From NCBI GenBank assembly GCA_013288325.1, contig JABDCB010000030.1, forward strand, positions 1 to 34,520: a stretch of 34,520 nt of DNA. The letters are read 5' to 3'. This DNA is from Bacteroidota bacterium (GTDB lineage Bacteria > Bacteroidota > Bacteroidia > Palsa-965). Shown here piece after piece: positions 7,651-32,740 of the stretch. The translations under genes were made by a program, and so were the position numbers. Each line of letters opens with the position of its first letter. Positions within the stretch are counted from its first letter, which is position 1. The notes below the pieces were generated by a model that saw nothing but the letters and a program-made list of their open reading frames with translations, searched no databases and had not been told where the DNA came from.

Positions 7651-7720
7651 GAGAAGACACAAGAATCAAGACTTTTTAAATTCGTCTTGTCTCTTGTGTC
7701 CTGTTTCTTGTTTCTGTTTT
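7651..7720. repeat. Imperfect inverted repeat built from seven-base units
   Basis: Between the dksA-like gene and lspA, 7651-7672 and 7684-7705 are imperfect inverted repeats (about 22 bp, a few mismatches). The right side continues as a tandem run in register: CTTGTCT, CTTGTGT, CCTGTTT, CTTGTTT, CTGTTTT (7686-7720), ending in the stop codon of the dksA-like gene. On the minus strand the hairpin is followed by TTTTAT, so it could attenuate transcription into lspA or protect an mRNA end. Confidence 0.7.
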
Positions 7721-8460
7721 TATCGGTTCTGTTCTAATTTCGCATCAATGCTCAATGTTGCATGAGGAACACTTCTCAGACGCTCTTTAGGAATGAGGCG
7801 GCCTGTAACACGGCAAATACCATATGTTTTGTTCTCAATACGAATCAGTGCATTTTTAAGGTTCTGAATATATTTTTCCTGACGAGACGCCAAATGAGCT
7901 GTCTCTTCTTTGGAAAGAACGTCTGATCCATCTTCCAGCAATTTGAAGGTTGGTGAAGTATCATCTGTTCCATGATCATCTTTGTGAGAAAGGGTGTTTT
8001 TCAGCAATTCATAATCACGGGTTGCCTCTTCCAGTTTTTTATTGATCAGATCCTTGAATTCCATCAATTCCTTGTCAGAATAACGGGAACGGGGATCTCC
8101 TTTATCAAGCTTCATCAAAGGTTTAGCTATGGTTACTTCTTTTCTGGGCTCATAAGGTCTCTCGATCTTTACCTCCACTTTAACAGGGATCTTATTAACC
8201 ATCGGTTTTTTAACTTCCGGTGCCTTACCGTTTGAAACCGGTTTTTTGGCAATCTTCTGTACTGGGGCTTTAGCGGCTACTTTAGCAACCGGTTTAGACG
8301 TTGCTTTTTTAGCAGCCTTCGGTGCTGTTTTCTTTACTGCTTTAGGTCCTGCCTTTTTACTTGCAAGTGACTTTTGAGCTGCTCCTTTTACAGGTTTTGC
8401 TGCTTTTTTAGCTTTTCCGGTAACGGATTTAGCTGGCTTTTTTTGAACTTTTTTAGCCAT
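7720..8460 (-). CDS. DksA/TraR-family protein with Lys/Ala-rich histone-H1-like N-terminal region
   Basis: A 246-residue protein in two parts. Residues 1 to about 95 are low-complexity Lys/Ala/Pro/Val sequence with repeated KKA and AKKAT units, like bacterial histone-H1-type tails that bind DNA or RNA. Residues about 125-246 resemble DksA/TraR: a helical hairpin with a tip near HKDDHGTDD (159-167), then YGICRVTGRLIPKERL. The four-cysteine zinc finger of classical DksA is absent; only Cys216 remains, as in other Bacteroidota members I recall. A transcription-modulating role at the RNA polymerase secondary channel is inferred from the fold. It lies 11 bp downstream of ileS and upstream of lspA, an order often seen in this phylum. 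Confidence 0.85.
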   Translation of the reverse strand: MAKKVQKKPAKSVTGKAKKAAKPVKGAAQKSLASKKAGPKAVKKTAPKAAKKATSKPVAKVAAKAPVQKIAKKPVSNGKAPEVKKPMVNKIPVKVEVKIERPYEPRKEVTIAKPLMKLDKGDPRSRYSDKELMEFKDLINKKLEEATRDYELLKNTLSHKDDHGTDDTSPTFKLLEDGSDVLSKEETAHLASRQEKYIQNLKNALIRIENKTYGICRVTGRLIPKERLRSVPHATLSIDAKLEQNR

Positions 8461-28759: not shown

Positions 28760-28778
28760 TGTCTCGTTCTTTTATATC

Positions 28779-28967
28779 GCTTATCCGGAAAGGTGGAGGG
28801 ATTACGCCCTATGAAACCTTGGCAACCCATTGGGTATTGAGGGTTTATGAATTATGATTTAAGATTTGACCTTTTAAGGGTTATAAATTGAAAATCTTAA
28901 ATCATAAATCTTAAATCAATAAGAAGGTGCCAACTCGTTCGCAGCATATTGTTTGCGGAAGATAAGT
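28779..28967 (+). promoter_or_regulatory. SAM-I (S-box) riboswitch aptamer
   Basis: The S-box core is plainly readable. P1 is CTTATC (28780-28785) with GATAAG (28961-28966). P2 runs from AGGTGGAGGG (28791-28800) to CCCTATGAAACC (28808-28819). P3 begins GGCAACC (28821-28827) and closes with GGTGCC (28926-28931). P4 is CGCAG (28940-28944) with TTGCG (28953-28957). It senses S-adenosylmethionine and sits just ahead of metH, so it should switch methionine synthesis off when SAM is high. P3 is enlarged by about 98 nt of repeat-derived sequence. Confidence 0.93.
28852..28919. repeat. Inverted heptad-repeat element inside riboswitch P3
   Basis: The right side is four heptads in tandem: AAATCTT, AAATCAT, AAATCTT, AAATCAA (28892-28919). 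The left side (28852-28867) is the inverse of about two of them and pairs perfectly over 16 bp with 28892-28907, leaving a 24-nt loop. It is inserted in P3, where size variation is tolerated. Confidence 0.8.
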
Positions 28968-28998
28968 CAGAAATTATTTGAAATGTTTCAACATGGAT

Positions 28999-29031
28999 AA
29001 TCTCTTCTGGCTGTACCGGGAGGGATTTTTT
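28999..29031 (+). terminator. Riboswitch-controlled terminator of metH
   Basis: A 12-bp stem, 28999-29010 with 29016-29027 (three G-U pairs), a CTGTA loop and six T (29026-29031). It lies 32 nt beyond P1. Its 3' arm contains GGGAGGG, the only Shine-Dalgarno-like sequence ahead of the ATG at 29036. Bases 28965-28972 can instead pair with 29005-29012 (8 bp), using the last two bases of P1 and half of the terminator's 5' arm: a proper antiterminator. Confidence 0.8.
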
Positions 29032-29035
29032 ATTT

Positions 29036-32000
29036 ATGAGAACGAGACAGACAAATAACTACACGATACCTATGCCCGACATCCGACAGGAATTAGAAAA
29101 ACGGATTTTAGTAATCGATGGTGCTATGGGCACCATGATTCAGCCTTATAAGCTGAATGAAAAAGATTTTCGCGGTGAGCTTTTTAAAGACTGGCAAAGC
29201 GATCTGAAAGGTTTCAACGATTTGTTGTGTCTTACCCGTCCCGATGTCATCTCCACCATACACCGTGAATACCTGAAAGCAGGAGCCGATATCATTGAAA
29301 CAAATACGTTCAATGCAAACCGTATTTCCATGTCCGATTATCACATGGATATACAGGATGTGGATATCAATCTGAGTGCTGCCCGCATTGCCCGTCAGTG
29401 TGCAGATGATTTTACCGCTGCCGATCCTTCCCGTCCCCGCTTCGTAGCAGGAGCGGTAGGCCCTACTACGCGTACGCTTTCCATCTCTCCGGATGTAAAC
29501 GATCCCGGGTTTCGTACCGTTAACTGGGATCAGGTTCTGTTTGCCTATATGGAACAAATCAGAGCCCTTGTACAAGGAGGTGTTGATCTTATCCTGATCG
29601 AAACCATTTTTGATACCCTGAATGCTAAAGCGGCTCTTTTTGCCGCTCAGAATATTTTTGAAGAAACTGGGAAAACACTTCCTATCATGATTTCCGGCAC
29701 CATCACAGATGCCAGCGGAAGGACCTTATCGGGACAAACGGTGGAAGCGTTTCTCAATTCCGTAAGTCATGCCGACCTGCTAAGCATTGGTCTCAACTGT
29801 GCGCTGGGTGCTCATGAAATGAGACCTTATCTGGAAGAGCTCTCGGCCAAAGCTCCTTTTTATATCAGCGCTTATCCCAACGCCGGTCTTCCCAATCAGT
29901 TTGGAGAGTATGACGAATCTCCCGAACATATGGGCAGCCAGATTCATGATTTTATCGACAGCGGATTTATCAATATCGTGGGTGGATGTTGTGGTACTAC
30001 ACCGGGACACATCAGCCATATTGCTGCACACGCTGCCAGAGCTAAACCGAGAAAAAGACCCGTTATAGAACCTTATCTGCGCTTAAGCGGACTGGAGCCA
30101 GTAACCTTACGTCCCGATTCCAATTTCATGAATATCGGAGAGCGGACCAATGTAACCGGCTCGCGTAAATTTGCGAAGCTGATTATCGACGGCAATTATG
30201 AGGCAGCCTTATCGATTGCCAAAGATCAGGTAGAAGGCGGTGCACAGGTGATCGATATTAATATGGATGAAGGTATGCTCGACGCAGTAGCGGCCATGAC
30301 CCGATTCCTGAACTTGATTGGTGCCGAACCGGATATTTCAAAGGTTCCTATCATGATCGATTCTTCCAAATTTTTTGTGATAGAAGCCGGTCTCAAATGT
30401 ATCCAGGGCAAAGGAATAGTCAACTCCATATCCTTGAAAGAGGGAGAAGCCCAGTTCATCGAACAGGCCCGTAAAGTAAAGCGTTACGGAGCCGCTGTTA
30501 TTGTCATGGCTTTTGATGAGCACGGCCAGGCCGATTCATTGCCACGCAGGATAGAAATCTGTTCACGCGCTTATAAGATCCTGACCGAAGTGGTTTTATT
30601 TCCGCCTCAGGATATCATTTTTGATCCCAATATTTTTCCTGTTGCTACCGGCATGGAAGAGCACCGCTTAAATGCGCTCGACTTTTTTCAAGCCACCAAA
30701 TGGATTAAAGAACACCTTCCGTACGCCAAAGTTAGCGGAGGGGTATCCAACGTCTCTTTTTCTTTCCGGGGCAATGATCACGTGAGAGAAGCTATCCATG
30801 CAGCATTTCTTTATCACGCTGTAAAAAATGGTATGGACATGGGTATTGTCAATCCGGGTCAGTTGCAGGTATATGACGAAATACCGAAAGATTTATTGGA
30901 ACTGGTGGAAGATGTGCTGCTGAACCGCAGGGATGATGCCACCGAAAGACTGGTGAATCATGCAGAAACCATCAAAGGTGCCGGCAAACAAAAAGACGTA
31001 AAAGATGAAGAGTGGAGGAAAGCTCCTGTTGAAGAACGCCTGAGCCACGCATTGGTAAAAGGTATTGTTGATTTTATCGACGCCGATGTGGAAGAGTGCA
31101 GACAAAAGTCTTCCCGAACACTGGATGTTATAGAAGGTCCTCTGATGGCCGGAATGAATGTGGTGGGTGATCTTTTCGGAAGCGGTAAAATGTTTTTACC
31201 CCAGGTGGTTAAAAGCGCCAGGGTGATGAAAAAGGCTGTTGCCTATCTTCTTCCCTTCATGGAAGAAGAAAAAAAGAAAAGCGGATCGGTACAAAAAAAT
31301 GCCGGAAAAATATTGATGGCCACCGTAAAAGGTGATGTGCACGATATTGGAAAAAATATTGTGGGTGTGGTGCTTGCCTGTAATAATTATGAGATCATCG
31401 ACCTGGGTGTCATGGTATCGTGTGACAAGATTTTATCAGAAGCCCGTCTTCACAATGTAGATCTTATTGGTTTAAGCGGTCTCATCACCCCGTCTCTGGA
31501 CGAGATGGTGCATGTAGCCAAAGAAATGGGCCGCACAGGGATGAATATTCCTTTGCTCATTGGAGGTGCCACCACATCAAAAGTTCATACAGCCGTGAAG
31601 ATTGCTCCTCACTATTCATTTCCGGTGGTTCATGTGAATGATGCATCCAAATCGGTTCCTGTTGCCAGCAGTCTTATTTCCAAAGAGCTCCGGCCTGCGT
31701 TTATGAAAACAGTGGATGCCGATTATGAACGGCTACGCGATCAGAATAAAAATGCACAGGCTCAGAATAAATATATTGCCCTTACGGAAGCTCAGACCAA
31801 TTCCTTTCCTACGGATTGGAATGCGTATGCTCCTGTTAAGCCTGCATTTATAGGCAATAAGGCATTCAACGATTATTCGTTGGCGGAAATTGCTGCGTAT
31901 ATAGACTGGACCCCATTCTTCCACAGCTGGGAAATGAAAGGCAGTTATCCTAAAATTTTTCAGGATCCGGAACGGGGAGTGGAAGCAAAAAAGCTGTTTG

Positions 32001-32044
32001 ATGATGCACAAAAAATGCTTCAGCAGATTATCAGTGGAAAATAG
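29036..32044 (+). CDS. metH: Cobalamin-dependent methionine synthase, catalytic part up to an in-frame TAG
   Basis: MetH methylates homocysteine to methionine using 5-methyl-tetrahydrofolate and B12. This 1002-residue part has the homocysteine domain ([11 protein letters not shown]; zinc-binding NCALGA and GGCCGTTPG with Cys318/Cys319), the folate domain ([39 protein letters not shown]), the cap helices and the cobalamin domain ([11 protein letters not shown] with the B12 ligand His769; [24 protein letters not shown]). It stops at TAG (32042-32044) just after the B12 domain, where the reactivation domain continues in the same frame. ATG at 29072 ([10 protein letters not shown]) fits the family N-terminus better; 29036 has the Shine-Dalgarno-like GGGAGGG. 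If translation ends here the enzyme is catalytic but cannot be reactivated by its own domain. Confidence 0.95.
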
Positions 32045-32740
32045 CTGAAAGCCAATGCCGTTATTGGTATCTATCCTGCCAATCGCAAGGGAGATGATAT
32101 TGAAGTGTATACCGACGAAACCCGGACCAAAGTCCGTACTGTTTTTCACAGCATACGTCAGCAAACAAAAAAACCTGCCGGACAGTATAACATGGCCTTG
32201 TCAGACTTTATTGCTCCTTCACCGATCCCTGATTATATCGGCTCCTTTGCTGTTACAGCCGGTATTGGGATTGACGAATGGGTTAAAAAGTTTGAAAAAG
32301 ATCACGATGATTATTCTGCCATCATGCTCAAAGCTATTGCCGATAGGCTCGCAGAAGCTTTTACCGAGCTGCTGCACTTACGTCTGAGAAAGGAATTCTG
32401 GGGTTATGCCAAGGATGAACAATTGGATGAGAGCCAGCTTATCAAAGAAGAATACAAAGGAATCAGACCCGCTCCGGGATATCCTGCTCAACCCGATCAT
32501 ACGGAAAAACCTTTGATCTTTTCTTTGCTGGATGTAGAGAAAAATACGGGTATCACACTTACAGAAAGCATGGCCATGTTTCCTACAGCGGCTGTAAGCG
32601 GGTTGTATTTTGCACATCCAGAAGCACAGTATTTCGGTGTGGGTAAAATTCAGAAAGATCAAATAGCCGATTATGCTTCCCGAAAAGGAATGAATCTGGA
32701 AGAAACGGAACGTTGGCTTGGAACGGTGCTGGCATACTGA
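32045..32740 (+). pseudogene. metH: SAM-dependent reactivation domain of MetH, downstream of in-frame stop
   Basis: The same frame as metH continues without a break for 231 codons: [79 protein letters not shown] (the SAM-binding signature) and [19 protein letters not shown]. This is the complete MetH activation domain, which re-methylates oxidised cobalamin with SAM and flavodoxin. There is no in-frame ATG before 32192 and only a GTG at 32105, both inside the conserved domain, so independent translation from a proper start is unlikely. From 29036 to 32740 the reading frame is 1234 codons including the TAG, close to E. coli MetH (1227 residues). I mark it pseudogene only because of the single stop; readthrough or a sequence error would restore one protein. 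Confidence 0.85.

Follow-up and report, generated by a model that had tools for sequence, protein, structure and literature searches.

A SAM-I riboswitch of metH in a Bacteroidota genome with a heptad-repeat hairpin at the tip of P3, a variable site that carries different heptad hairpins in related bacteria

The stretch of DNA analysed here (34,520 nt, contig JABDCB010000030.1; hereafter the window) derives from a MAG of a Bacteroidota bacterium that is 60% complete. Its sole Rfam match is a SAM-I riboswitch, which scores 65 bits against a gathering score of 44.4 (E 4.2e-13) and covers positions 1-108 of the model RF00162 end to end (Table 1). The arms other than P3 are near consensus length in the Rfam SAM-I alignment, in agreement with an earlier sequence-only reading of the locus that had described them as canonical. 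Downstream follow a terminator platform and a gene of the methionine/SAM pathway, identified by its MetH domains; translation of metH likely starts at 29074. The frame is broken by an in-frame TAG (32042-32044) at a position where several relatives encode tryptophan (EKWL), which reflects either a sequencing error or a genuine truncation. Alignment with the leaders found in its two nearest relatives shows the terminator kept with differing stem letters, and as an element with a 12-pair stem and a T run is thus preserved, the switch is read from its anatomy as a presumably ordinary SAM-dependent transcription terminator that would control metH.

Table 1. Features of the metH leader and gene in the window.
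Feature	Position	Strand	Basis
SAM-I (S-box) riboswitch aptamer, P1-P4, P3 expanded	28778..28968	+	Rfam RF00162
P3 base 5' strand, conserved, GGCAACC	28821..28827	+	model alignment
Variable P3 tip, 98 nt	28828..28925	+	between P3 base strands; nearest relative's tip 18 nt
5' heptad array GGTTTAT GAATTAT GATTTAA GATTTGA (inverse)	28842..28869	+	sequence; lag-7 statistics
Apical loop of heptad hairpin, 24 nt; differs between copies	28868..28891	+	sequence; copy comparison
3' heptad array AAATCTT AAATCAT AAATCTT AAATCAA	28892..28919	+	sequence; TRF
P3 base 3' strand, conserved, GGTGCC	28926..28931	+	model alignment
Intrinsic terminator of expression platform, 12 pairs then T run	28999..29027	+	fold
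metH, cobalamin-dependent methionine synthase, regulated gene	29036..32044	+	Pfam, tblastn
MetH frame after TAG, remaining activation domain	32045..32740	+	Pfam, tblastn

The sequence-only reading had noticed about 98 nt between the two strands of the P3 base, including four tandem AAATCNN heptads and an inverse copy, together giving a 16-bp hairpin that turns P3 into a long stem. All of this is borne out: the interval measures exactly 98 nt, AAATC begins at 28892, 28899, 28906 and 28913, and 16 perfect pairs (28852-28867 with 28892-28907) belong to a stem that reaches out to 28842/28917 and spans 26 positions, of which two are mismatched and one is a G.U pair. The self-match of the tip at lag 7 exceeds dinucleotide shuffles (z = 6.4), with a lag-7 max-window p of 0.002, the floor of the 500 dinucleotide shuffles used; equally, none of 200 shuffles equals the hairpin energy (z = -4.8). 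As the inverted heptad arrays pair, the occupant of the tip forms a hairpin, which lengthens P3 when the pairs of the P3 base are held in the fold (-30.8 kcal/mol).

This hairpin is absent from the nearest relative, a palsa_967 MAG (L029, MetH about 87% identical), which has the same aptamer core with a P3 tip of 18 nt, while the tip of the next relative (G003, of the window's genus) is an 85-nt hairpin of unrelated sequence. Core, leader and terminator are kept in all three, and their tips are mutually unrelated. A comparison of 57 aptamers gives P3 tips of 10-120 nt (SD 34) against 85-107 nt (SD 4.6) for the remainder, in agreement with the proposal of a P3 arm of changing length on a constant core. 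An old long P3 sequence common to all relatives, covarying and unrelated to heptads, can be ruled out, as the tips of the window and its two nearest relatives differ in length and sequence and sister species carry different units. The genome of the nearest relative encodes two metH genes (L207, L209), with 87% and 76% identity to that of the window; both are preceded by a separate SAM-I riboswitch whose P3 is short. In a 98% complete genome of the window's genus (G001), the searches made turned up no metH match and no SAM-I riboswitch.

The tip lengths are bimodal, with tips of up to 51 nt on the one hand and of 71 nt or more (longest 120 nt) on the other. Among the 19 long tips (defined as 60 nt or more), 14 are clearly 7-periodic by eye and by test, with differing units, and five are without clear heptads, including that of G003. 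Pooled, the 19 long tips reach z = 15.3 for lag 7 and z = 11.2 for lag 14, other lags staying between -2.8 and 3.3, whereas no lag-7 signal is found in tips of medium length (20-59 nt) or in TPP riboswitches of this genome set, of which 16 among the longest were examined. The units comprise AAAGTTT (G004), CGAACTC/CAAACTC (G005), CTCCNNN (G006, G008), AAAATTA (G016), AAGTTCA (G098), AAGTNNG (G090), AAATGTT-like sequences (L030, L032) and GTTTAGA (L031). BLAST of the window tip against the other long tips returned no match, while its own genome does match. Two species of one genus, G016 and G098, have near-identical cores and tips of similar size (93 and 89 nt) built from different heptads. Different heptad hairpins thus recur at one spot in related bacteria, so that the P3 arm gives the impression of a site where such repeats land or grow time and again.

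The bimodal lengths (71-120 nt versus up to 51 nt), and the retention of length and hairpin in sister species whose sequence has changed, would suit a long P3 arm that is itself under selection for a function, such as binding a protein or setting the pace of folding, with a drifting sequence. We regard such a role as improbable, since close relatives with the same core have tips of 10-24 nt and no motif common to the long tips was found.

The probable source of the window's heptads lies within its own genome. Searched against this genome, the aptamer gives 34 BLAST matches which, apart from its own locus, all fall within the P3 part, and several of them hit both strands of one place, that is, they are palindromes. 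Three exact AAATCNN units occur in 17 pattern matches compared with three for the reversed control, and the copies fetched are single arrays or inverted pairs flanking short loops. In 400 kb of stretches from this genome (coding density 88%), short periods are dominated by 7 and 14, found at 11 and 16 places as against 0-2 for the other lags from 4 to 15. All 16 AAATC-type arrays that a pattern search located in these 400 kb lie outside ORFs, one of them overlapping an ORF end by 11%, and eight of the 16 read AAATC toward a start codon 1-24 nt away. The same dominance of periods 7 and 14 is seen in G004 and G006 and, with small counts, in G016. The repeat consequently represents a heptad family of the window genome that is scattered between genes and often palindromic. 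The two free positions of AAATCNN vary by lineage according to pattern counts, being mostly AT/TT in the window genome, CC in G002, GC/CA in G004, TC in G016 and CG in G018. At L181, L184 and L186 of the window genome, such arrays tend to stop 1-24 nt ahead of start codons in one orientation, the inverse arm lying near the preceding stop codon, so that the intergenic gap is filled. Other heptads are equally present: in the window itself, 5.1 copies of TCTTGTT (7685-7719) lie between two ORFs and abut the ORF at 7720-8460, and a second dispersed family of the window genome, AGAAGTC/AGAAGAC, has been located at L178:11234-11289, L181:6139-6181 and L185:17498-17623, one instance being an inverted pair.

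Copies with the same inverted arms elsewhere in the genome, together with the short tip of the nearest relative, could suggest that a MITE- or REP-like mobile palindrome was inserted whole into a short P3 loop. The nine palindromic copies, however, have common arms of varying length around unrelated loops (one of 36 loop pairs with p < 0.05, about the chance expectation), many copies are just single arrays, no target duplication is evident in comparison with L029, and outgroups are long-tipped already. A transposon-like body with conserved ends was accordingly not found among the dispersed copies. Because the loops are not common to the copies, a conventional mobile element is ranked lower and appears to be the least probable of the origins considered. 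The suggestion that a mobile or expanding repeat had landed where the aptamer tolerates changes in length is therefore upheld with respect to the dispersed family and the tolerance of P3, while a mobile landing is not established, given the unlike loops, the lack of an evident target duplication and a long P3 that is possibly older.

The age of the long P3 was addressed with a MetH tree, built by a quick method, in which one row (L237) is placed on an extremely long branch and probably represents a protein other than MetH. The window groups with the short-tipped L029, then with the long-tipped G003, and farther relatives are mixed, with long tips also in G016 and G098; nine changes between long and short tips are counted, at least seven of which are forced by supported branches. 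A long P3 may thus predate the lineage of the window, and long versus short is not polarised by this quick tree; because outgroups on the metH tree are long, it is equally likely that the heptads took the place of an older long tip and that they entered a short one. What is specific to the lineage is the AAATCNN content of the tip.

Evidence on whether the heptads arrive from elsewhere or grow in place comes from the genomes in which the P3 unit was compared with dispersed repeats, and in three of the four tested (the window genome, G000; G004; G098) the unit matches the genome's own family. Searching G004 with its own tip yields 13 additional matches, one of which is the same place on the opposite strand. 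Equally, the G098 tip finds 11 additional matches in its own genome and 10 in the sister G016, which carries a different unit in its P3 despite holding these matches elsewhere. In the fourth genome, G006, no other copy of the CTCCNNN unit of P3 exists, and the unit is common to G008 with a different number of heptads; as it is not dispersed in G006, local growth also occurs. These last observations, together with a possible seed, GATTTA, in the tips of L029 and G009, favour an expansion in place from a P3-loop seed by slippage and hairpin template-switching with no outside copying. As a general account such an expansion is rather doubtful, since the match with the dispersed family in three of four tests and the wholly different units of sister species speak against it, but it is the main rival. 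Since units match the genomic pool in three of four genomes, the heptads most likely originate by copying from this pool with subsequent slippage rather than from a conventional transposon.

Taken together, we consider the P3 tip to be a permissive variable-insertion site that is repeatedly re-occupied by heptad hairpins within an ordinary SAM-I attenuator that controls metH, the occupant in the window stemming from the AAATCNN (TNNGATT) family, and assign to this reading a probability of roughly three in four. In SAM-I riboswitches, the ligand is bound between P1 and the base of P3, which agrees with a tip that would be free to change. Located outside the SAM pocket, the tip of P3 would accept hairpins of inverted degenerate 7-nt arrays, recurrently so in Bacteroidota; the tracts would be copied from other places in the genome, through template switching or some comparable process, and then be altered by slippage. 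The riboswitch has probably kept its function. As the hairpin merely lengthens P3, with the pocket and the P1/terminator switch left intact, the heptad tip most likely has little effect on SAM sensing, being close to neutral, and would add at most the time required to transcribe about 80 nt.

With one fixed RNA position, many heptad occupants and intact flanking cores, these leaders represent a countable natural experiment in which the spread and unit change of bacterial heptad repeats become directly testable with strain series, and the P3 site maps where a riboswitch tolerates large inserts. As long tips lower the scores of covariance models, routine searches may on the other hand miss some such riboswitches.

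The closest precedent is the trnL (UAA) group I intron of Nostoc, in whose P6b stem TDNGATT (Class I) or NNTGAGT (Class II) heptads have repeatedly replaced one another (PMC4476775) and pair into a hairpin (PMC3488679). In both systems inverted heptad arrays constitute a length-variable hairpin on a tolerant RNA arm, and whole units are replaced between relatives; the window case differs in concerning a riboswitch of Bacteroidota, with many more unit types at the site, rather than an intron of Cyanobacteria. TAAGATT and TATGATT on both arms of the window hairpin even fit the Class I consensus, with the inverted arrays forming the stem, a likeness to a degenerate consensus that could be convergent. 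A process crossing the phyla Bacteroidota and Cyanobacteria, which spreads and replaces lineage-specific heptad arrays and recurrently places them as hairpins in permissive arms of structured RNAs such as SAM-I P3 and trnL P6b, is advanced as a tentative proposal that falls short of even odds. The sequence-only reading, correct in seeing a repeat in a tolerant arm, was too narrow in this respect, having missed both the hairpins of differing units in many Bacteroidota and the Nostoc parallel. TAACTGA heptamer repeats have also been described, intergenic in Beggiatoaceae, Cyanobacteria and some Bacteroidetes (PMC4679880). They resemble the AAATCNN family as strain-specific 7-nt direct repeats that are intergenic, oriented and near start codons, with no known mechanism; the window unit is different, degenerate and often palindromic, with one copy within an aptamer. 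Riboswitches have been described to tolerate long, non-conserved stem-loop 'variable insertions' at specific sites (PMC2258182); a dispersed heptad family as their origin was not seen described there. Our literature search retrieved no account of heptad hairpins in a riboswitch arm, of heptads in Bacteroidetes riboswitches or of palindromic repeats in SAM riboswitches. Compared with a typical SAM-I riboswitch (RF00162), the window element is alike in its full-length match, conserved core, metH context and terminator platform, and differs in that its P3 tip, about 10-20 nt in the typical case, measures 98 nt and is built from genomic heptad repeats.
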